Position numbers and translations under genes: made by a program. A DNA stretch of 46,686 bases from Rhodospirillaceae bacterium MC!. Lineage in GTDB: Bacteria; Pseudomonadota; Alphaproteobacteria; MC1. Under the pieces are notes generated by a model. The model was given only the letters and a program-made list of their open reading frames with translations. It made no database searches and was not told the origin of the DNA. This document shows, one piece after another, positions 4,112-46,313 of this stretch (position 1 is the first letter of the stretch; every line of letters begins with the position of its first letter). Location of the stretch: positions 1 through 46,686 of the forward strand of contig NQOV01000004.1 in assembly GCA_002632265.1 (NCBI GenBank), read 5' to 3'.

Positions 4112-4218
4112 TAAGGACGAGAAAAATAGTCAGTAGGCTCTTTAAGGCAATGCGTGGTGTATATACCACTACATAAGCATTGACTTAAAGAGCCTAATGG
4201 CTGTTTTTATCGTTCTTA
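4112..4218. repeat. Long stop-adjacent hairpin (variant F1)
   Basis: About 107 bases fold into one long stem. The outer 30 bp pair almost completely, with three G-T wobbles and two mismatches. An inner arm (CTTTAAGGCAATGC / GCATTGACTTAAAG) carries an apical loop that begins GTGGTGTATA and ends CTACATAA. The last arm bases include the moaA stop codon. Loop ends and architecture match the copies at 7.6, 12.0-12.3, 15.9, 21.3 and 24.7 kb. It probably also terminates moaA transcription. Confidence 0.8.
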
Positions 4219-7617: not shown

Positions 7618-7845
7618 ACTTCGATCCGCAGGATTGGAAGAAACTGGCTAAGATGTACCTTAAATCAGGGCGACGTGTACTCACATCTACATAAGCCCTA
7701 AGCTAAGGTGCAGATTAACCCACTTACCGCAATCTGTAGGATTGAGAGAAATGGGATAAGATGTGCTTGTAAGCGGTACGCCGTGTACTTAATGCCTAAA
7801 CTAGTACCGCTTACAAGTGCAGATTAGCCAATTTATCACGATCCC
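7618..7845. repeat. Two-copy array of the long hairpin element (H1-H2)
   Basis: Two units with period 108-109 bp. Each has a lower stem block (TAAGATGT.C paired to GTGCA.ATTA), a copy-specific middle arm and an apical loop beginning GACGTGTAC or GCCGTGTAC. In H1 the middle arm is ATCAGGGC, imperfectly paired. In H2 it is GTAAGCGGTAC, paired end to end. Units are joined by a small hairpin of the type GATCCgcaGGATT. The outermost arms (AAACTGGCTAA and TTAGCCAATTT) pair across the whole array. It ends at the stop codon of the FAD-oxidoreductase gene. Confidence 0.85.
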
Positions 7846-10104
7846 TTATTTAAGGCATATGCCGAATATGGCAGGCTTATTGCCCCATGTGTCATTTACT
7901 GTGATAGTTAATTCGCTAAAATTAATCGTACCTAAATTATGATGATTAACGGCTTGATGATTATCTTTAACACTTACAATAACTTCATTCTTTTCATTAG
8001 TGATAGTATAATCTTTTATGCAATATGAAAGGGCATGATATTTATGGTTTTTCCCTGTGGTTTCCATATTTTGACTGCTGTTGGTATCAAAGAACATTGT
8101 TAATATACCATTTTTTAGATTGATTTCCTTATCCCATTGGATTTTTAGTTGCGAATCATGTTTATTCTTACCAACCCAAGCATTACTTGAGATTACTGGT
8201 CTGTACTGTCCTTTTAGGATGTTTTCAGGTTGGAATATATTTTGCTCTTCTAGGAATTCAATGGCGATGTTAAACTCGTTAGGATGTCTCATAGCTTGCC
8301 AACGTTCGTATGATTGAGCTTTATCTTCCTTGTTAAAGAGTTCCATAACAGGATTGTAAACAGTTGTAACAGCGGTTAATAGTTCAGATGTGGAATTAAA
8401 TAAAATATCAGGATTTTCGCCTAAGGTAATATAGATATAGCAATTTTCATTCACGCTTGCGGTTGGCTTAATTATGATATCTTGCACGCCTGTTTCTAAG
8501 GCAACATCAAAGCTTTCTAGAGTAGTATGTGGCGTGAAATTATCTAGGCTTTCGGTTGTTCTGATTTGAATGTTAACATTATCCTTATTAAATGCTTTAA
8601 AGTTTAATTTAAAACTTGGAATCTTGCCTTTATTTACTGGGAATAAAAAAGCGTATGCTTTATCTAGACGTGTATAATCTTCGCTTTTTTGAGTAAATCC
8701 TTTAAATGGTAAAGTATCATTCGATGAAATTTTCGCTTGTGATACTAAATTATTTTCTAACGCTGGTAAAACATTAGGAATATAATGCCCTTTAGCAATA
8801 AGACGTTGTTGTAGTTCGTGTAAGTATTTATCTTCCAATATATCTTTAGGCTCAAGATTATATTCTACGCACATGGCGGTAGCCATTCCTGTAGCTTGAC
8901 CATTAACCGCTCCTGTAAGCATTAGGCGAGTAGTACCAAAAGCAATATGACTCACTGATATTAGACGTCCACCTAAGAATAAATTACTAATATTACGACT
9001 ATATAAACATCTGTAAGGAATGGCGTATACGCTTTTAGGATGCCAATGACTGGAAGACGGTAATTTACTATAAATCCCATCGGACGGATGTAAATCAATT
9101 GACCATCCACCATGGGCGATGTTATCCTTATGATGTTTTACTAATAAGACATCATCTTGAGTTAACATATAATCTCCGTAAAAGCGTCTGGCGTCTCTTT
9201 TACCTGGTAAAGCTCCTATCCAATCTAGAGTTTTATTTTTAGCTTCAGGGAATTTGCCAGAATTTTTAATGTGATCCCACGCACCATATACGACCTTTTT
9301 AAGCTCATATTTGATTTCTTCGGCGTCTCTAATGGTATCCAGTCGCCCACCGTATTCGAACCACCAGAAATGACAATCGCCCTCTTCTAATAATTTCATT
9401 TCCTTATATTTAGGCAATTTAGTTATATCTTTTAAGGCGAAATTCGGGGCAGTATATTTAACTTCTTGTCCCATATCTTTAATGGAAAACATTATGGAAT
9501 TACCTAAGCAATGGCCGTAAGCTTTATCACGTATAAGGCTTTCATTAAAATCTTCTTTGGTTTCTGGGGTGATTGTATGCTCGGCTCCTGATGTGTATCC
9601 CACAAGACCATCGCCTGACGAATCAGAAAAGAATTTGGATTTAAATGTGTAGAATGTTTCATTATTACTATTATAACCACTTACGGAAGTAATCTTATTC
9701 TTGCCGTCTGTTTCGCTTGAGTTTATGGATGTATTTAAAAATAATTGAATATTTTCTTCATCTAGAACCTTATCTAAAAGAAGAGCGTCGAATAAATAGG
9801 CGTTACCCTCGGCGTTTCTGTGAACATTTTCTGTGAGAATTTCATCGATCACACCGCCCTCACGACCCCAACGATTATTATTTCCCATTCCTGCGGTAGC
9901 CCCTAAGGCCCATACTCGGATCTCTGATGAGGCATTCCCACCGAGAACAGGTCGATCCTGTACTAAAGCCACTTTTAATCCCTCTCGTGCTGCCGTAATT
10001 GCCGTACAAATACCAGCCATACCGCCACCAACTACCGTATAATCACTTGTGATAGTAACTTCTTTTATTTTATTCTGATTATTATTGTTATTATTATTGT
10101 TCAT
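7846..10104 (-). CDS. FAD-dependent oxidoreductase (FAD_oxidored family)
   Basis: A 752-residue flavoprotein. After a low-complexity start (eight asparagines in a row from an AAT/AAC repeat), residues about 17-60 form the dinucleotide-binding fold (TVVGGGMAGICTAITAAREG ... QDRPVLGGNASSEIRV), typical of the FAD_oxidored family. SDSSGDGLVGYTSGAEH and the C-terminal half of the FAD domain (LFLGGRLISVSHIAFGTTR, then GAVNGQATGMATAMC) complete the cofactor site. Residues about 480-752 look like beta-rich accessory domains. No signal peptide is seen, so it is probably cytosolic. Relatives often sit in sugar or glycoside loci, and the neighbouring LacY-like permease supports a carbohydrate substrate, but the reaction is unknown. 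A terminator-like hairpin separates it from the permease gene. Confidence 0.85.
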   Translation of the reverse strand: MNNNNNNNNQNKIKEVTITSDYTVVGGGMAGICTAITAAREGLKVALVQDRPVLGGNASSEIRVWALGATAGMGNNNRWGREGGVIDEILTENVHRNAEGNAYLFDALLLDKVLDEENIQLFLNTSINSSETDGKNKITSVSGYNSNNETFYTFKSKFFSDSSGDGLVGYTSGAEHTITPETKEDFNESLIRDKAYGHCLGNSIMFSIKDMGQEVKYTAPNFALKDITKLPKYKEMKLLEEGDCHFWWFEYGGRLDTIRDAEEIKYELKKVVYGAWDHIKNSGKFPEAKNKTLDWIGALPGKRDARRFYGDYMLTQDDVLLVKHHKDNIAHGGWSIDLHPSDGIYSKLPSSSHWHPKSVYAIPYRCLYSRNISNLFLGGRLISVSHIAFGTTRLMLTGAVNGQATGMATAMCVEYNLEPKDILEDKYLHELQQRLIAKGHYIPNVLPALENNLVSQAKISSNDTLPFKGFTQKSEDYTRLDKAYAFLFPVNKGKIPSFKLNFKAFNKDNVNIQIRTTESLDNFTPHTTLESFDVALETGVQDIIIKPTASVNENCYIYITLGENPDILFNSTSELLTAVTTVYNPVMELFNKEDKAQSYERWQAMRHPNEFNIAIEFLEEQNIFQPENILKGQYRPVISSNAWVGKNKHDSQLKIQWDKEINLKNGILTMFFDTNSSQNMETTGKNHKYHALSYCIKDYTITNEKNEVIVSVKDNHQAVNHHNLGTINFSELTITVNDTWGNKPAIFGICLK

Positions 10105-11659: not shown

Positions 11660-12014
11660 GTAATAACATAACTGGCCTATTTTTTTACTAGATAAAAAAA
11701 TTATAATACAAACCCGTCGTAAGTTACCATTAATTAACTTATCGCATTATACATATGAATATACATTTATTTGAATAGGCGTAATTGCATTTTATATGGA
11801 ATCTATACCCAACATATTCATATATATTATAGTATATATTAAGTTAACCACAAAGTCAAGCTTATAATTATTTTTACTGTAAAATCTTATACTTGCATTT
11901 AAATTAACAATTTTAAATTAAATATTATTTTTCATATCCTAATAAAAAGGCTCTTGATTAATTTAAAATAATAAAACTCTAAACCAATCAAGAACCATAT
12001 TAACCCACTTATGA
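11660..12014. other. AT-rich non-coding region upstream of the permease
   Basis: No gene is visible. An imperfect hairpin (GGCTCTTGATT at 11949-11959 with its complement at 11986-11996) lies just before the three-copy hairpin array. The permease promoter should lie at the left edge, but I could not settle on one. Confidence 0.5.
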
Positions 12015-12346
12015 CGATCCGCAGGATTGGGAGAAATTGGCTAAGATGTGCCTTAACTTAGAGCGACGTTTACTTAATGCCTACACTAGCTCTAAGGTAA
12101 GGTGCATATTAACCCACTTATGACGATCCGCAGGATTGGGAGAAATGGGATAAGATGTGCCTTAAATCAGGGCGTACATGTACATATGTTTACCTAAGCC
12201 CTGATTTAAGGTGCATATTAGCCCACTTATCACGATCCGCAGGATTGGGAGAAATTGGCTAAGATGTGCCTTAACTTAGAGCGACGTGTACTTAATGCCT
12301 ACACTAGCTCTAAGGTAAGGTGCATATTAGCCAATTTATCACAATC
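12015..12346. repeat. Three-copy array of the long hairpin element (H3-H5)
   Basis: Three units with an exact 109-bp period (GATCC marks at 12016, 12125 and 12234). Each unit contains GATCCGCAGGATTGGGAGAA, the lower-stem block TAAGATGTGCCTTAA, a variable middle arm, an apical loop and TTAAGGTGCATATTA. Middle arms are CTTAGAGC in H3 and H5 but ATCAGGGC in H4. H4 pairs perfectly, while H3 and H5 each have one mismatch. H4 also has a different loop (GTACATGTAC..TTTACCTAA). The first left arm (AAATTGGCTAA) pairs perfectly with the last right arm (TTAGCCAATTT) across the array. It ends at the lptE stop codon. Confidence 0.9.
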
Positions 12347-13252
12347 CTACTTATCGGTTACGTCTATTGGTAGGGGATATAATGTAATATCTTTTATGGT
12401 TTTTTCTTTGGCTTTTATGGCGTCCATGTCTTCGACTACTTTGGGTTTTATGACTTCTATTTGGTGTTCGTTATGATAAAGCCATGCTATAATATTGGTG
12501 TATATTTTACTACTTATGTAAATAAGAGCTTTTTCTTTTGCGTCTTTTTCGGCGAAAGTTAAGCCTGTTAGGGATCTGGAAAGTGTGTAGCTTGTTACGG
12601 CTTGGGATTTGGCGTTATAGACCACTTTACCAGTTTGGAAACTTTCTATTGAGTATGAGGCGTATAGCAAATACTTAAAGCGGTTGGGTACACCGTAGAT
12701 ATCTGAAGAGAATGAGCTTGTACTATCGCTTAAGCTAACTCTTAGCACATATTTATAATCGCCTATCGGTTTAACCGTATGTAATAGTTTATTTAATTCT
12801 CCACGTAAGAACCAACCTTGATAATCGGCAATGGATGCTATCCATACACGTTCGGAAGATAAGACGGTACTATTTTTTAACGGATTAAGTATTAAACGAT
12901 GATAAAAACTCTGATTATACTTTTTATTAAATTGATTATCGCCAACCGTATGAGTAACTTTACTTAGTTTTTCCTTTTGATATTTGGCAATGAAATTCTT
13001 ATAATAATTCACATAAGCAGGTTTTTGTTTTATATTATGGCGTGAGTGTTTGTTGTGAGATTTTACTTTAGATAATCTTCCAGAATTCTTATTTGCTCTA
13101 ACTAAATTTTGCGAATTCGAATCGTTTACAGACTGATAAAAGGATTTAATATTCGGTCTATCAGGATTATATAAGGATGAATAGCCACAACCACTTAAGA
13201 AAAATATAACAATTACCGAAGTAATATGAGATAATCTCGCACCGCCATTCAT
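12347..13252 (-). CDS. lptE: LptE-like LPS-assembly lipoprotein
   Basis: The 301-residue protein begins with a signal peptide and lipobox (IVIFFLSGCGYSSLY; lipidated Cys at about residue 22), the hallmark GCGY start of LptE. LptE plugs the outer-membrane LptD barrel during lipopolysaccharide export. The gene follows leuS with only one base between, the usual leuS-lptE order of alphaproteobacteria. The chain is longer than typical LptE (about 170-200 residues) because of a basic, Ser/Asn/Lys-rich insert (about residues 30-105) and a C-terminal extension. The core YGVPNRFKYLLYASYSIE and the SQAVTSYTLSRS region fit the family. holA, often next in this operon, is absent; a repeat array follows instead. 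Confidence 0.75.
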   Translation of the reverse strand: MNGGARLSHITSVIVIFFLSGCGYSSLYNPDRPNIKSFYQSVNDSNSQNLVRANKNSGRLSKVKSHNKHSRHNIKQKPAYVNYYKNFIAKYQKEKLSKVTHTVGDNQFNKKYNQSFYHRLILNPLKNSTVLSSERVWIASIADYQGWFLRGELNKLLHTVKPIGDYKYVLRVSLSDSTSSFSSDIYGVPNRFKYLLYASYSIESFQTGKVVYNAKSQAVTSYTLSRSLTGLTFAEKDAKEKALIYISSKIYTNIIAWLYHNEHQIEVIKPKVVEDMDAIKAKEKTIKDITLYPLPIDVTDK

Positions 13253-15905: not shown

Positions 15906-16012
15906 TTAGGGTGGGAAAAATTAGTTAAGATGTGCCTTAAAGCATAGCGACATGTACTCTTGTTTACCTTAACTATGCTTTAAGGTGCATATTAGCTAAT
16001 TTTCAGCCCTAA
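15906..16012. repeat. Long stop-adjacent hairpin (H6)
   Basis: A 107-base element beginning TTAGGG and ending CCCTAA. Outer arms AAAAATTAG / CTAATTTT are shared with the short hairpin at 1605-1640. Inside lie the conserved block TTAAGATGTGCC paired to GGTGCATATTAG, a perfectly paired copy-specific arm (TTAAAGCATAG / CTATGCTTTAA) and a loop beginning CGACATGTAC and ending TTTACCTTAA. The right arm runs through the stop codon of the DUF3576 gene. Confidence 0.88.
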
Positions 16013-20979: not shown

Positions 20980-21306
20980 TATGTTTCTCCGTTATGATAT
21001 TTCATATTTAAAAGTGTAAAGATCTAATTAAAACAAATACTTAGGATTTGTTTTAGATAAAAATTTTTTGACCTCAAAGATCGTAAAAAATTTTTGTGCT
21101 TTGTTTAACAGTATTCGGCTTCGTAGCTCGTTTGTTAAACTTCCCTATAATAACCATAAGCCAACCCTAAAAGCAAATATATTTTTAAACTATTTTACAT
21201 CTTATTGTAATAGTTATATATTTTTTAGAAAAAAGAATAAATATAAATAATGATTCGCTTTTCATTATTAAGATTCTCTTAATAATTTACGAATCCCAAA
21301 CCCAAA
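20980..21306. other. Non-coding region with inverted repeats upstream of the AspRS-like gene
   Basis: No gene is supported. AAAAATTTTTT (21059-21069) pairs perfectly with 21085-21095, and GTTTAACA (21103-21110) pairs with TGTTAAAC (21133-21140). Three GANTC sites lie at 21252-21295. The promoter of the AspRS-like gene should be at the left end. Confidence 0.5.
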
Positions 21307-21408
21307 GGGTGTGAAAAAGTGCTTATCCAAGGTTCTTAAGGCATACGGGGTGTATACCCCATACATAAGTATGCCTTAAGGGCTTTGGATGAGTGCTTTT
21401 TCACACCC
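21307..21408. repeat. Long hairpin variant F2
   Basis: A 102-base, almost fully paired stem: outer arms GGGTGTGAAAAAGTGC and GTGCTTTTTCACACCC, and an inner perfect arm CTTAAGGCATAC / GTATGCCTTAAG. The loop begins GGGGTGTATA and ends CATACATAA. Unlike the other copies it does not touch a stop codon; it lies about 100 bases before addB. Confidence 0.85.
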
Positions 21409-21436
21409 CTTGAAAATAATTTTCTCAAAAAAGTTC

Positions 21437-21465
21437 TTGTTCTCTTTTTGTTTTTATGATAATAT
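21437..21465 (+). promoter_or_regulatory. Probable addB promoter
   Basis: TTGTTC (21437-21442), 17-base spacer, TAATAT (21460-21465), about 47 bases before the addB ATG. This placement supports the start at 21512 over the upstream ATG at 21389. Confidence 0.5.
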
Positions 21466-21511
21466 AACTATAATTCACAAGAATCAAGCACTCAAAAGAG
21501 AGAAAAGTATA

Positions 21512-24500
21512 ATGAGTATTTACAATATTTCAGCAAGTTACGATTTTTCCGATGTCCTAGCCAAGCACATTTTAAAGGATTCGGATATCCATAACAGTAT
21601 TATTTTTCTTCCGACTAAGCGTGCTATCCGTACCATGCAAGAAGCATTCTTACGCTTATCGGACGGTAAACCCCTGTTATTGCCAAGACTAATTGCCCTA
21701 GGAGATCCTGATGATACCTCGATTCTCATTGATCAACTTACAGATCATGATGATTCGCTTTTAACTCTCAAGCCTGCCATTAGTAATAAGTTGCGTCTCC
21801 TACATTTTACGCAATTTGTGCGAAGATTATACGAAAATTTAAAGCGTCCTGCCCCAACCATGACGGTACTTAAGCAATCCCAAGAATTATCGACCTTTCT
21901 CGATACGGCTCAACGCTTTGAAGTGGATCTTAGTAAACTCGAAAAATTAGTGCCAGAAGAATATTCCAAACATTGGAATGAGAATCTCGCCTTTTTAAAG
22001 ATCATCAGCCACTCATGGCAAGATTTCCTTAAGGATATGGATTTGCTTGATCCTGTAGATCGTTGGGTGCGAATCATCAATTCCATATGCAGATATTGGC
22101 AAGAACATCCGCCTAAACAAAAAATATACATAGCAGGTTATAGCGGTTCTGTTCCTGCCATGGCTAGATTACTTAAGACCATCAGCGAAAACGAAAATGG
22201 TTGCGTGATCTTGCCTGATCTTGACACGAATCCCTATTTACAAGCGGAATATGATATGGGAAATCTAAGGGAAACACATCCGCAATATTCCTTATATAAG
22301 CTGTGCGATCAAATGGGAATCCTACCCAGATCCATCGAAGAATTACCAGGGGATCATATACAAAATAATAAGATATTACCAATCATAGTCCGCTCGGCAT
22401 TTGCTCCCAATGGAGTATCTTACGCCGAAGAGTATGAAAAACTAGCACATACAAAAGCCACCACGATCCATACTGCCACTTTAAATAGTGAGCAGGAAGA
22501 GGCCTTATATATTGCTGGCGTCATGCGTAAGATAGCCGAAAAAGATAGCACCACATGCACCCTAGTTACTCCCAACCGCAAGCAAGCCCAAAGGGTTAAA
22601 GCCGAGCTTAAACGTTGGGATATTCAAGTGGATGATTCCGCAGGTTCGCAATTGATACACACAGCAAAAGGCGTATTAGTTAACAGTATCTTAGAAGTAT
22701 TCTTTAAGGATTTTAATGCGGTAAATGTTCTTTCCATGTTAAAACATAATCTATGTTGGCACGCTTGGGCAGATAAGCAAAAATCCGTTGATATCCTAGA
22801 TATCGCCCTACGTGGTGTAGGAGCTAAAAAATCCCTGCATGAGCTGAAAAATAAGGCTCTACAGACTATCGGCAAGGATCAAGAAAACAATAGTAATTAC
22901 AAACATAATTTCCAACATTTAGGATCTAAAGAAGAAATACTCAAGCATATGGACAAGCTTTTTTCCCATATGGAACAAGCATTTGCCCCAATGTTTGCCA
23001 TAAGCACAGCCAATGAAGAACACTTCAATACTACTCTTGATTTTAATATCAGCGAAAAACTAACCGCCATAGTTCAAACAATCGAAAATATCGCCAACAG
23101 CGAACCATATGATAATGATAATCATGATAATAAAACCAATCCCGACAAAAAAGACGGCCATAAAAACATGTGGATAGATGATGACGGTGTTACCTGTGCC
23201 AACATGTTTACAGATCTCTTAAAACTAGCCGAAGAAAATAAGGATTATGAGCTATTTAAAGGGCAAAACATTTCACAAACCATATCTTTTTTCATGTCTA
23301 ACACTCAAGTACGAGCGAGCTTTTCCAATCATCCACGCTTGCACATTCTCGGCATGTTAGAATCACGTTTTCATCGTGCTGATGTGGTTATTATCGGCGA
23401 TATGAATGACGGCTCACTCCCACCAACGCCCACTCCTAGCCCATGGTTAAACAAAGCCATGTCAAGAGCCATAAACATGCCTGTTGATGATACTAAAGTC
23501 GGCGATTCTGCCCATGATTTCGCTTTCTCTATGGGGGCCGATAGTATATATCTCACACGCTCGGAAAAAGTCGACAATGCTAAATCTCTACTTTCCCCAT
23601 GGTGGTTAAAAATCAAAAATTATATAGATAATCAGAACAAACTACATAAAGACAAAAATAAGGCAATGGATATCACATTCGCCACAGATGATTTTAACAT
23701 CACTCATATAGATAAAGCAGAAAAGCTCATTCCAACCGTACCGCCACAACCTTTAGTACCTGTTAAGTATCGTCCGCAACACTTATCGGTAACAGGGATT
23801 GAAGCTTTAGTCCAAAATCCTTATTATATTTATGCTCGTAATATTTTAAAGTTACAAAAATTAGCCGATTTTAACGAGCAAGGCTCATACGCAGGTTACG
23901 GCAGTTGGATACATAAAATATTCGAAACATTCTCCTATAATCCCACCGCTAGCACAAGCGAAAATGTAGCAAGACTGGATCGCCTAGCACAAAAATACAT
24001 CCATGATTATACCAATGACGACATGGAAAAAATCATCTGGAATCATCGTTTTTCACGTACTAAATACGGCATGCACGCCCAAATCAGAGACAATTCTCAT
24101 GATTTCATCCATAGTTACAACGAAAAATACGGCATATATAACATAACCTTAGATAACAAAAGCACATTTACCCTAACAGGCATAGTCGATCGTCTTGATG
24201 TCATTGAAGTTGAGTATGATAATAACAACAAAAGCGAAGAAAAAATCCGTATTATTGATTATAAAACAGGTAAAGCCCCAACAAGACCCAAGGTGTTAAG
24301 CGGATTCTATCCACAATTGCCCCTACTTGCTCTCATCGCCCAAGAAGGCGGATACAGATCCCATAATGATAACACTCTAGACATTCAAAATATGCAAGCC
24401 CATAGCATGTGGTATTGGCAAGTGGAATCTTCAAACATCAAGCCTACATTTGTCCCCGCCAAACCCACCGCCAAGGAAGATAAAACCCATGACGAACTCA

Positions 24501-24664
24501 TAAGCGAATTGATCCTAAATACTAAATACTCCTTAAAGAAACTCTTAAACGATTTTACCAAAGAAGAAACCGTATACAACGCCCACCCCCACGGAATCGG
24601 CGAAAGCAAACGCACCGACTATGACCACTTGGCAAGAGTAGAACAATGGAGTAAAGAGCTATGA
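21512..24664 (+). CDS. addB: Double-strand break repair protein AddB
   Basis: A 1050-residue subunit of the AddAB helicase-nuclease, which processes double-strand ends for RecA loading. The N-terminal helicase-like part has IIFLPTKRAIRTMQEAFLR in place of a canonical Walker A, and later VVIIGDMNDGSLPPTPTPSPWLNKAM, characteristic of alphaproteobacterial AddB. The C-terminal RecB-like nuclease domain keeps IRIIDYKTGKAPTRP (Asp and Lys of the catalytic motif) about 100 residues from the end. ATG 21512 is preceded by GAGAGAAAAG; the frame is open to 21389 but the promoter argues against using that start. addA follows after hairpin H7. Confidence 0.92.
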   Translation: MSIYNISASYDFSDVLAKHILKDSDIHNSIIFLPTKRAIRTMQEAFLRLSDGKPLLLPRLIALGDPDDTSILIDQLTDHDDSLLTLKPAISNKLRLLHFTQFVRRLYENLKRPAPTMTVLKQSQELSTFLDTAQRFEVDLSKLEKLVPEEYSKHWNENLAFLKIISHSWQDFLKDMDLLDPVDRWVRIINSICRYWQEHPPKQKIYIAGYSGSVPAMARLLKTISENENGCVILPDLDTNPYLQAEYDMGNLRETHPQYSLYKLCDQMGILPRSIEELPGDHIQNNKILPIIVRSAFAPNGVSYAEEYEKLAHTKATTIHTATLNSEQEEALYIAGVMRKIAEKDSTTCTLVTPNRKQAQRVKAELKRWDIQVDDSAGSQLIHTAKGVLVNSILEVFFKDFNAVNVLSMLKHNLCWHAWADKQKSVDILDIALRGVGAKKSLHELKNKALQTIGKDQENNSNYKHNFQHLGSKEEILKHMDKLFSHMEQAFAPMFAISTANEEHFNTTLDFNISEKLTAIVQTIENIANSEPYDNDNHDNKTNPDKKDGHKNMWIDDDGVTCANMFTDLLKLAEENKDYELFKGQNISQTISFFMSNTQVRASFSNHPRLHILGMLESRFHRADVVIIGDMNDGSLPPTPTPSPWLNKAMSRAINMPVDDTKVGDSAHDFAFSMGADSIYLTRSEKVDNAKSLLSPWWLKIKNYIDNQNKLHKDKNKAMDITFATDDFNITHIDKAEKLIPTVPPQPLVPVKYRPQHLSVTGIEALVQNPYYIYARNILKLQKLADFNEQGSYAGYGSWIHKIFETFSYNPTASTSENVARLDRLAQKYIHDYTNDDMEKIIWNHRFSRTKYGMHAQIRDNSHDFIHSYNEKYGIYNITLDNKSTFTLTGIVDRLDVIEVEYDNNNKSEEKIRIIDYKTGKAPTRPKVLSGFYPQLPLLALIAQEGGYRSHNDNTLDIQNMQAHSMWYWQVESSNIKPTFVPAKPTAKEDKTHDELISELILNTKYSLKKLLNDFTKEETVYNAHPHGIGESKRTDYDHLARVEQWSKEL

Positions 24665-24665
24665 T

Positions 24666-24758
24666 AAATGGGCTAATATGCACCTTAAATTAAAATTAGG
24701 GCTAAGGTAAACTCATAGTACATGTACGCCCTAATTTAAAGCACATCTTAGCCCACTT
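24666..24758. repeat. Long stop-adjacent hairpin (H7), reverse orientation
   Basis: Starts one base after the addB stop codon. Read on the minus strand it has the family order: GGGCTAAGATGTGCTTTAA, arm ATTAGGGC, a loop beginning GTACATGTAC and ending GTTTACCTTA, the complementary arm, then AAGGTGCATATTAGCCC. It is inverted relative to the other copies, but so is addB, so orientation relative to the adjoining gene is the same. The right middle arm has a 3-4 base insertion. Confidence 0.85.
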
Positions 24759-24829
24759 CTCCCACTCCTTTAAGCCGAATCACAAGCAGAACTACAAGCG
24801 AATCACAACAGTAAGATCAAGAGAATCCC

Positions 24830-31700: not shown

Positions 31701-33339
31701 AAACGCACAAACCAGTTCTCCTGCGTCGCCTGCTCCTGCTCCAGCTCCAGCTTTCCCTTCTTCGGCGTCGCCTGCTCCCGCTCCAGCTCTCCCTTCTTCG
31801 GCGTCGCCCGCTCCTGCTCCTGCACTCCCTTCTTCGGTGTCGCCTGCTCCAGCTCCCGCTCCTGCTCCTAGTCATATTCTTTACGGTATGCCAACCCCTT
31901 ATCCATATACTTCGCCTGCGTCTCCGCCACCAAGTATAAAACCTGTGCAAAATACCCAAGCTAGCAGACAACAAATGGCTACAGCCTTAGGCATACCAAC
32001 TCCATTTACCTCTTCGCCTGCGTCTCCTGCTCCTGCTCCAGTTTCTACTTCCATTTCCAATCAAGGCTCATCATTAACCTTTAACGGTAAACTAACCTTT
32101 AATATAGATCCTGTAAAACGTCAAGCCACTCACATTACTTCCGATCATGTGGATCTTAAAGCAGGTTACGACATCCAAGTAGCGTCCCTTAAGGCAAGCC
32201 CAGGCATAGAATACAGCACTATCCTAATCAAAAGTCCAGACATCAAAAACGAAAACAAAAACCAAACCGTATATAAAGACAAACTTTCCGCAGGTAAAGG
32301 CTTGTGGAAGATCACTACTAATCGTGATAATACAGGCTTACACGCAAAAGTAAAAGCCAGTAGTACTGTTGATTATAACTACGGGCCTTTAGATAATAAC
32401 GATGATATAACATTCGGTATTAGCAATCAAGTTGCCCAATATCGTACTAATGCCATTGTAGCCCATGGTTCTAACTATCTTGATTTATCCATGAGTGGGG
32501 CGACAGGCAGTGCTTATCAAGATTTATCGTTAATTGAAACCCATTTAAATGTATCTATGCCCTTTAAACATGCAATCCCCTTGCTTAATCAAGATTCTCG
32601 TAATTTATTTAATATCCAAATGGGATACTATCATGGTACAGGTACGCAAGATGATTTCAACCGATCAGTTAATGCTTACACAACTGGCGGTAGTGTGAAA
32701 ATATATAATATCTTAAACCAACACAAAAACGCTTTACTGCGAAATACTTGGCTTAGTACTGGTTTTGATTTTGGTCTATCACAACAATACAACATTGCAC
32801 GACACAGCGAACACTTTAACCAAAACACAACAAAAGGTAAGGAAAATGATATCTTCACAACCAATACCATACTAAGTGGTTTAGATCTCTACGTCCACTT
32901 TAAAAGCAAACCCACCCTTAAATTCTCAATTACTCCTTACATGGGTGTAGGTTTCAATCTTACACGCTTGGGCGAATATTCAGAAACCGCCGTCAATCCT
33001 TTAACAATCACATCCCAATATCGATTCAATAGCTACGGCATTTTCGGTACAAACCTAAAAGCCACCTATAAACTAAAAAATAGCCAACTGGTATCCCTTG
33101 GAGCAAACATCGAAACTAACTTACGATTCAATCCCATAGGTCATAACAGAAATTACTCTTATGTGAATTTCAATAGCGGTACTCCAAAAGATAACGACTA
33201 TAAACAACTACCATTCATCCTAAGCCTAAACGCCAGCTATCAACCAAAAAAATACATTTCAATCTTCACAAAGCTAAGCGGTTCAACCCAAGAAATGTAT
33301 AATTATAACATGTCAATAGGAGCGAAAATACTATTCTAA
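28738..33339 (+). CDS. Large autotransporter (type Va secretion) protein
   Basis: A 1533-residue secreted surface protein. Residues 1-23 are a Sec signal peptide (SLSSLSFVAQA, then cleavage before KN). A long, mostly beta-rich passenger follows. It contains a repeated module, NNIIQLRNDL.EGVIDGGAGQNTLLLS (about 620) and NNTLTLQDDITGIIDTGSGN (about 915), each followed by a GNWYFQN or GSWVFSD strand, resembling calcium-binding or pertactin-like turns. Residues about 990-1105 are a Pro/Ala/Ser linker with repeated SPAPAPALPSSA. The last 290 or so residues form the outer-membrane beta-barrel, ending in the aromatic SIGAKILF. The passenger's first 450 residues match no family I recognise. Likely roles are adhesion or host interaction. 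It has its own promoter and no partner genes. Confidence 0.9.
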   Translation: MKKALLYSLVGLSLSSLSFVAQAKNHLAPQVSTNPQFHHYSDYMDISTEDIADYINNQYTNPTTGIPEFIFNHVGKESGDGHGTNTQGAGGRYNEMFDAELEFDNALKRDNIIGNQVMAKYRDSHDLLWLKVRKMERYNAERQRLYSQHRGQGGWNAISGGSGIPKIVHLDVYGARIGNYRAEELAKYRLDTGLAPSGTDTPHEDDYGRHGRDVNNDHMNDLGWQSENVMTPRNGYKSVFHLPKTIVTDQAGSKPPIALLEEYMFNSGKVDSTMWGSDGYSAYIIERVKLPPTNSGDNTKIGPSDHLKNGVLPLYPSPDYEKMGHFVNIMDDENVDAAGTIVALVDGGAYTNYADVDEFGMKHTAFPSPVPPGLQSLPGKGKDYVKVIIKTNEPNALFNYDITVDGTPTQVYDSTGKLRYDPTWGGGVKAAPLYDSVKHEYHLYVKVPTADQSKPSIKIQAVLGGPVGQIGTTATHAIQGIDPNTAPTNPHSHSMTGEKKTGDDFRTKTNLFTTPGDLQNALLGGPFLQQQAFANYQNITVNGAGKIALDDPKVVIEYDYSNLADKDITNKSVAYLSNRGIVMATNGAKAVKLNDTRIFVNEGVIFADQNSTAIQMNGQNNIIQLRNDLIEGVIDGGAGQNTLLLSNPKHQMDERGLDKSAPTTNKYTVHNVTLKNIQQIHAQSGNWYFQNSTISLGSSNLRQATTLPWAHNDASGLKDSYDYKPQSGNVTFQGDITVDGNSPNPVVFAQDITFKGKIKILNLTDSGSSMDFSNLFNARRNLTIDYDNIEFGGQGGSTSARFLMGKYNRPLTGSVLFGSSQNMQIIDNDQAMNFDENKIAQMQGSDPSNLGNSEVGAIAGTAPLTVNTEINANGENSLGVWSGFKGTDITIKKVITALGINSKAIELNHNNNTLTLQDDITGIIDTGSGNDTLVLSATATNKAHHINGKVVGITNIKNTKGSWVFSDPIELSLDTTRAKTSKNQATNSNAQTSSPASPAPAPAPAFPSSASPAPAPALPSSASPAPAPALPSSVSPAPAPAPAPSHILYGMPTPYPYTSPASPPPSIKPVQNTQASRQQMATALGIPTPFTSSPASPAPAPVSTSISNQGSSLTFNGKLTFNIDPVKRQATHITSDHVDLKAGYDIQVASLKASPGIEYSTILIKSPDIKNENKNQTVYKDKLSAGKGLWKITTNRDNTGLHAKVKASSTVDYNYGPLDNNDDITFGISNQVAQYRTNAIVAHGSNYLDLSMSGATGSAYQDLSLIETHLNVSMPFKHAIPLLNQDSRNLFNIQMGYYHGTGTQDDFNRSVNAYTTGGSVKIYNILNQHKNALLRNTWLSTGFDFGLSQQYNIARHSEHFNQNTTKGKENDIFTTNTILSGLDLYVHFKSKPTLKFSITPYMGVGFNLTRLGEYSETAVNPLTITSQYRFNSYGIFGTNLKATYKLKNSQLVSLGANIETNLRFNPIGHNRNYSYVNFNSGTPKDNDYKQLPFILSLNASYQPKKYISIFTKLSGSTQEMYNYNMSIGAKILF
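31717..31869 (+). repeat. Coding repeat: Pro/Ala-rich linker of the autotransporter
   Basis: Repeats of 36 bases encode SPAPAPALPSSA-type units three times in succession, with shorter PAPAPAP blocks on either side and another SPASPAPAP block near 32015. The local GC is far above the window average. Such repeats vary readily in copy number and would change the reach of the passenger from the barrel. Confidence 0.8.
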
Positions 33340-33394: not shown

Positions 33395-33806
33395 TGTTTT
33401 GTTTTGTTTTGTTTTGTTTTGTTTGGTCTTGCTCGACAGACGGTCAATCTCTTCGGTTTGGTTTTACTCGACAGACGGTCGCTCTCTTCGGTTTGGTTTT
33501 ACTCGACAGACGGTCGCTCTCTTCGGTGTGGTGTGGCTCGACAGACAGTCAATCTCTTCGATGTGGTCTTGCTCGACAGACAGTCAATCTCTTCGATGTG
33601 GTTTTACTCGACAGACAGTCAATCTCTTCGGTGTGGTCTTACTCGACAGACGGTCGCTCTCTTCGGTGTGGTCTTGCTCGACAGACGGCCGCTCTCTTTG
33701 GTGTGGTCTTGCTCGACAGACGGTCGCTCTCTTCGGTGTGGTCTTGCTCGACAGACGGCCGCTCTCTTCGGTGTGGTCTTGCTTGGTAAACGGTCGCCAT
33801 GTGTAA
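33395..33806. repeat. Tandem array of 35-bp repeats with pentamer leader
   Basis: After a run of GTTTT pentamers (about 33395-33420), ten full units of 35 bases follow, with CTCGACAGA recurring exactly every 35 bases from 33432 to 33747, and then a degenerate unit at 33782. The core is CGACAGACGGTCGCTCT with single-base variants (GGTCGCT, GGCCGCT, AGTCAAT). Because 35 is not a multiple of three and the unit lacks stops, all three plus frames appear open; none has a ribosome site or protein-like composition. Confidence 0.9.
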
Positions 33807-46094: not shown

Positions 46095-46313
46095 TTAGAA
46101 ATCTTGCCAGACAGTCGCACTCTTTAGTTGGAGGTCTTGCCAGACGGTCGCTCTACTCGAGCAGAGGTCTTGACAGACGGTCGCTCTGCTCGGGCAGAGG
46201 TCTTAACAGACGGTTGCCCTACTCGGGCGGAGGTCTTGACAGACGGTTGCCCTACTCGGGCGGAAGTCTTAACAGACGGTTGCCCTACTCGGGCGGAAGT
46301 CTTGCCAGACGGG
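46095..46313. repeat. Tandem array of 33-bp repeats
   Basis: About seven units, with CTTGCCAGA/CTTGACAGA/CTTAACAGA recurring exactly every 33 bases from 46103 to 46301. The unit contains CCAGACGGTCGCTCT or ACAGACGGTTGCCCT followed by ACTCGGGCGGAGGT, so it shares its core with the 35-bp array at 33.4 kb but has a different second half. Because 33 is a multiple of three, both strands show open frames of Arg/Ser- or Thr/Ser-rich repeats, without ribosome sites. Confidence 0.88.

Follow-up and report, generated by a model that had tools for sequence, protein, structure and literature searches.

Why do hairpins that share a foot and a tip differ from copy to copy in the middle of the stem, and why do three of them stand in a row next to the end of a gene, at positions 12,015 to 12,346 of the window (the whole stretch of 46,686 nucleotides analysed here)? 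The initial annotation had counted at least nine such hairpins, seven of them with a common lower stem, and had offered two explanations: either structure rather than sequence is maintained, or each copy was made by a process that writes both arms together. The nine copies are real, as R1, a covariance model built from 24 units of the genome (alignment A1), recovers 9/9 of them in the window at 49.7-108.5 bits (Table 1). Single window units fold at −27 to −69 kcal/mol, compared with a median of −16 for 428 other 105-nt stretches of the window, and five folded window stretches gave z values of −5.9 to −8.5 against dinucleotide shuffles. The common lower stem of seven copies was recovered as the foot TAAGATGTGCC / GGTGCATATTA with small changes, while the copies at 4115 and 21306 have a different foot and the same apex as the other copies; the unit at 12133-12236 carries an apex of the other type (TTTACCTAA). 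As described initially, the middle arms differ yet match, and they do so in eight of the nine copies, the exception being the partly mismatched unit at 7631-7733 (AAATCAGGGC versus GCCCTAAGCT).

Table 1. Hairpin units and associated features in the window
Feature	Position	Strand	Description
Unit	4115-4213	+	Single, divergent, B-like; R1 65.7 bits, R2 97.5 bits
Unit	7631-7733	+	Subfamily A, distal copy; R1 87.4 bits; folded
Unit	7739-7842	+	Subfamily A, proximal copy; arms GTAAGCGGTAC / GTACCGCTTAC; R1 96 bits
Terminator-like site	11949-11996	-	Intrinsic-terminator-like, ordinary; beyond the array
Truncated unit	11996-12023	+	Older unit's right end, distal in the array; sequence (CATATTAACCCACTTATGACGATCC)
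Unit 3 of array (distal)	12024-12127	+	Subfamily A; arms CTTAGAGC; R1 95.3 bits
Unit 2 of array	12133-12236	+	Subfamily A; arms ATCAGGGC; R1 106.7 bits
Unit 1 of array (gene-proximal)	12242-12345	+	Subfamily A; R1 108.5 bits
Unit	15908-16010	+	Single; A5/T4 tracts in foot; R1 77.8 bits
Unit	21306-21407	+	Subfamily B; R2 117.8 bits
Unit	24658-24768	-	Subfamily A; R1 68.7 bits; stop offset −7

With respect to the genes, the proximal end of unit 4115-4213 lies 2 nt from the moaA stop codon (4216, − strand), unit 7739-7842 has a 752-aa gene (7846-10104, −) whose stop codon is 3 nt away, unit 12242-12345 stops 1 nt short of the stop codon of a 301-aa gene (12347-13252, −), unit 15908-16010 overlaps the stop codon (16009) of a 221-aa gene (−), and the 1091-aa gene at 21389-24664 (+) takes its TGA stop codon from the end of unit 24658-24768. 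The placement exception is unit 21306-21407, which has no adjoining opposite-strand stop; it is located in a divergent region, upstream of the 1091-aa gene. The three units in a row belong to a head-to-tail tandem repeat of 109-bp period (11996-12347 by TRF, array start 11996), and since the terminator-like site lies past this array, the likely terminator is separated from the stop codon by the array.

Across the genome as a whole, window included, 172 units in 96 clusters were curated, a lower bound, as the stretches around matches were read and some further hits of a second covariance model, R2, were left out. BLAST of the genome gave 67 matches, and R1 and R2 gave at least 146 and at least 127 hits, respectively (both strands counted, 150 candidates scored each). 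The LeuS protein of this genome places it in the Alphaproteobacteria, its best match there reaching 56-57% identity. One unit is a hairpin of 95-115 nt with 40 modelled pairs. The units fall into two subfamilies, A (the 12015 type) and B (the 21307 type), that are built alike: foot and apex (GTGTAY ... TACATAA-like) are conserved, and the middle arm between them covaries freely; the stem of B (GTGCTTA..CAGCGTTC..) is unlike that of A, and the apex is the same. The unit termini are GGATTGGG / CAATCC-like and covary, and A5 ... T5 tracts surround the stem in subfamily B and in some A units. Two units contain internal partial duplications of the apex region (L074 3501-3635 and L082 3614-3728). 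The initial statement that no described family has this plan stands as far as Rfam is concerned, since no family reached its gathering score in the window, where only two tRNAs were found; it does not stand for the general kind, as extragenic palindromes at gene ends are known (REP). At a low threshold, Rfam returned mostly eukaryotic miRNA-type hairpins far below their gathering scores, the exact foot or apex patterns had no match in genome contigs or viral contigs, and phage and plasmid records had no match to the element.

Covariation was tested statistically at the genome-wide level, and the real alignments score above all shuffled and slid controls. In A1 (A type), 92.1% of the cells pair and 60 cells are changed on both sides, versus 17.3 ± 3.4 in shuffled and at most 17 in slid controls, with a covariation score of 0.249 versus 0.137 shuffled and ≤0.075 slid. 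In A3 (B type), 95.7% of the cells pair, 20/40 pairs show two-sided changes, and 45 cells are changed on both sides, versus 12.4 ± 2.9 shuffled and ≤15 slid, with a score of 0.284 versus 0.153 shuffled and ≤0.098 slid; no shuffle equalled the count of two-sided changes in either alignment. The middle arm pairs in 95% of the cells of A1, with a majority letter per column of only 0.78, and in 96% of those of B, with a majority letter of 0.83; it is the most variable part of the stem in subfamily A, and in subfamily B the short outer foot varies even more. Middle arms that are about 95% paired despite variable letters support the view that structure rather than sequence is maintained.

The other explanation is that quasi-palindrome correction or hairpin template switching rewrites the arms together, so that no selection is needed. 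It would suit middle arms that vary more than the foot yet stay matched, and likewise the 37-nt perfect arms of one unit in a second genome (G094, described below). However, conserved wobbles would be lost if one arm served as the template for the other, and in the most intact, gene-proximal units conserved G.U pairs and mismatches persist beside variable arms. Chimeric arms persist too, and one-sided changes and G.U intermediates occur in the stems of A1 and A3. Joint rewriting of the arms, already weakened by these observations, is therefore disfavoured and appears improbable.

The wobble pairs are distributed unequally between the two strands. The foot of both subfamilies contains a GTGC/GTGC tandem wobble, whose pairs read G.U on the element strand but A.C on its complement, and columns 28/29 of the proximal A units give TG in 44/56 and GT in 45/56. 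Departures from Watson-Crick pairing number 100 G.U versus 41 A.C in proximal A units and 21 G.U versus 7 A.C in proximal B units, and the wobble-majority pairs of subfamily B comprise 80 G.U versus 0 A.C cells. The strand complementary to the flanked gene (mRNA) is the one that folds better and bears the conserved G.U pairs. Among proximal units, RNA parameters make this element strand the more stable one in 53/59 of subfamily A and 28/30 of subfamily B, and DNA parameters do so in 56/59 and 29/30. For A units from position 3 outward, RNA parameters no longer show the preference (17/33) and DNA parameters show it less strongly (22/33). The fold preference is compatible with both RNA and single-stranded DNA, which it cannot tell apart.

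With plain ORFs as gene calls, without curated annotation, the 3′ end of the element falls within −45 to +20 nt of an opposite-strand stop codon in 70 of the 96 clusters, and the offsets peak at 0-12 nt, whereas random placement in the intergenic space of the same stretches gave a mean of 8.2% and a maximum of 18.8% (200 runs). The reverse orientation at a stop codon was found in 6/96 clusters; 26/96 are not at a stop codon by the ORF criterion, and several of these exceptions end at shorter ORFs. The clusters lie outside long ORFs, mostly at ORF ends, and in a few a reading frame enters the element and stops inside. The flanked genes are functionally diverse (e.g. lepA, adk, GidA family, priA, lacZ-like), and the distal neighbour, where counted, is tandem in 46 cases and convergent in 23. 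Additionally, a few units are found just upstream of start codons (L045 3582-4043 at dnaG, L065 3501, L078 820, and the G094 unit L224 5732 at deoD), and their element strand is in the mRNA sense, opposite to the usual polarity.

The element was rejected as an ordinary intrinsic terminator, as few units have the stem directly followed by a T tract (3/96 clusters score as intrinsic terminators in the mRNA sense and 7/96 in the + sense); subfamily B has its T5 inside the foot, under the terminator threshold used. A terminator-like site follows within 300 nt after 41/96 clusters versus 53/181 control stops. An AT-rich genome (window G+C 36%), with hairpins common at gene ends, might be thought to yield such structures as unrelated ordinary terminators or chance inverted repeats, but a foot and an apex common to 172 units, covariation above the controls, a fixed polarity and a separate terminator-like site beyond the 12015 array leave that next to no likelihood, and it is excluded by the covariance and placement tests.

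The arrays are polarised, the gene-adjoining unit being the best preserved and the distal units decayed. From the proximal unit outward, the Watson-Crick cells of the subfamily A foot run 0.91, 0.81, 0.80 and 0.77, and the mean fold energy of this subfamily goes from −49 to −33 kcal/mol. In 26/29 arrays the nearest match of the proximal unit lies in a different array and not in its own; identity between proximal units is 100% for L045 and L050 and 99% for L059 and L053, and such near-identical copies at unrelated genes point to recent spread. The gradient fits the arrival of new copies at the gene end. A very similar gradient would be expected if selection acted on the proximal unit while the others decayed, and the gradient together with the proximal-proximal similarity could also result from proximal selection plus local duplication, or from gene conversion. 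Genome-wide covariation bears out that arms are usually matched, but chimeric units, with mismatched arms of two types, are not rare (e.g. L063:3501-3604 and, in the L078:3501 array, the unit next to the gene), which limits the initial description. Such units imply that arms are inherited as halves, and, proximal ones included, they point to recombination through the shared loop. No consistent target-site duplication was found in the array linkers, whose last letters are TA, CA or AA with no regular pattern. Unrelated arrays (e.g. L045, L056, L058, L063, L070, L081) have the same C-rich linker, CCACCGCAAGCCC(T/A)A, on the distal side of units, which suggests that unit and linker spread together.

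The initial annotation had also pointed to relatives as a place to search. Among 385 genomes of the class, with few candidates scored per genome, R1 found none and R2 two, G094 and G190; the G190 hit (L212) has no apex and was not counted. G094, a distant second alphaproteobacterial genome, carries hairpins with the apex GTGTAT..ATACAT(A/G)A, whose stems are unrelated in sequence and copy-specific, with matched arms. In its 16 aligned units 22/34 pairs show two-sided changes, with a score of 0.479 versus 0.155 shuffled; the inner stem is the most variable part, the apex is nearly invariant, and the middle arm is 91% paired with a majority letter of 0.62. Twelve of the 20 units found in 800 kb of G094 are at gene 3′ ends, and in 11/20 an opposite-strand stop codon lies 31-42 nt past the apex. 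One unit abuts the 3′ end of a tRNA, which suggests that gene ends rather than stop codons decide the position. Across 618 kb from other genomes of the class, and across 360-470 kb from other species, no same-apex hairpin was found. A tRNA with anticodon TCA at L218 12667-12740 of G094, labelled SeC by ARAGORN, could be a tRNA-Trp reading UGA; the stop codons beside the G094 elements, as printed, are TAA or TAG.

These observations bear on whether the hairpins might be a structured RNA with a host function at gene ends, duplicated around but kept by selection and not a mobile parasite, which could act as an insulator against antisense or read-through transcription, a bidirectional terminator or a 3′-end protector. 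The best-kept structure in gene-proximal units, the A5 ... T5 tracts of subfamily B and some A units, the conserved G.U pairs, which suit RNA, and the G094 tRNA case, where the position follows gene ends and not translation, are all in its favour. However, the better strand is antisense, so that the 3′ UTR of the flanked gene has A.C where the other strand has G.U; intrinsic terminators are few, and the recent, almost identical copies beside unrelated genes speak for spreading. A host-functional RNA of this kind is possible, though we consider it rather doubtful.

The closest known systems are REPs, dispersed extragenic palindromes that lie <20 bp from the 3′ end of the upstream gene; REP, BIME and REPIN of the GTAG and CGTC superfamilies occur mostly between tandem or convergent genes, sometimes supply the stop codon of the upstream gene and have heterogeneous stems within a family (PMC3733652). 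The element resembles them in being predominantly extragenic and near gene 3′ ends (70/96 versus 8% expected), but it differs in that a REP palindrome measures 20-40 bp and the element 95-115 nt, which is 3-5 times longer; in that REPs have an unpaired GTAG or CGTC tag at one end and the element a conserved apex instead; in that it forms head-to-tail arrays of ~109 bp where REPs form inverted dimers; and in its one fixed polarity relative to the gene. GTAG-type REPs also have an associated Y1 (RAYT) transposase, which was not found in the genome. The family is thus classed as REP-like in behaviour and not as REP, from which its length and the lack of the terminal tag set it apart. It would be a true REP/REPIN if mobilised by a RAYT (Y1) transposase missing from the assembly, and the placement within 20 bp of a gene end (PMC3733652), the better folding of one strand and the GTAG that the complementary strand of many apices reads beside a small hairpin would agree with this; given the unit length, the missing Y1_Tnp and a GTAG-like word that is internal to the apex and varies (GTAG, GTAA, GTAT), we think this unlikely.

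Three other kinds of palindrome share part of the plan. RPEs are known for lying inside reading frames, RPE-1 being among the longer palindromic insertions; the element is likewise alphaproteobacterial, palindromic and present in many dispersed copies, but it lies at gene ends where RPEs lie in-frame inside genes, and it is set apart from them by description. The attC sites of integrons are long hairpins after stop codons in which structure is kept more than sequence and the folded strand is complementary to the coding strand, all of which the element shares, but it is not in cassette arrays and has a conserved apex in place of conserved R boxes; by reading, the R-box consensus (RYYYAAC / GTTRRRY) is absent from the consensus termini of A1 and A3. 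IS630-type MITEs (RUP, Correia) are non-autonomous palindromes of ~100 bp in high copy number, and the element matches them in length, palindromic form and copy number, but has no IS630 transposase, no constant TA duplication and a strand-asymmetric fold. In the genome (assembly 95.5% complete), no match was found for the Y1 transposase (Y1_Tnp, PF01797), for a reverse transcriptase (RVT_1, PF00078), by which spread by an own reverse transcriptase was rejected, or for the IS630 transposase (DDE_3). The best hit of the integron integrase model (TIGR02249) reached 71.8 bits against a cut-off of 265, and all 14 control genomes match likewise; tyrosine recombinases gave only generic, sub-cut-off hits.

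Based on these findings, we propose, with a probability of about one half, that the hairpins are new REP-like palindromic repeats which settle at the 3′ ends of genes and are probably mobile, though non-autonomous; their mobility, their acting strand and any host function are what we infer from the patterns above. The hairpin of the mRNA-complementary strand, as single-stranded DNA or antisense RNA, would be the recognised form, and a machinery that binds foot and apex would recognise it. The middle arm may then be a mere spacer stem, and for this reason any compensatory change in it would be tolerated. New copies would be placed beside the gene end and push older ones outward, where structure would be lost, and recombination in the shared loop inside arrays would give chimeric arms. 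Once in place, a unit would be part of the 3′ UTR, where an effect on transcript ends or translation is possible, as for E. coli REPs, for which effects on ribosomes and translation are reported within 15 nt of stop codons (PMC12306157).

More tentatively, the family may represent a new alphaproteobacterial class of structured, gene-end-seeking elements, defined by a GTGTAY...TACATAA apex above a stem that covaries freely, which spread among distant lineages, stack in time order and depend on neither Y1, reverse transcriptase nor IS630. If stacking in time order is true, the arrays record an insertion history. With more than 170 hairpins in one genome, foot and tip conserved and the stem free, the family is a natural experiment, and a different stem on the same plan in a distant genome makes REP-like needs and the relevant strand testable by sequence alone. 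The family also points to an unknown recognition or mobilisation machinery.

The window contains other repeats as well. The tandem arrays at 33424-33797 (35-bp, 10.7 copies), spanned by three overlapping + frame ORFs, and at 46102-46312 (33-bp, 6.4 copies) have a common CAGACGGTCGC core and look like a second, unrelated repeat family, and a 36-bp tandem repeat (CCTGCTCCAGCTCCAGCT...) lies at 31716-31862 within a 1533-aa ORF.
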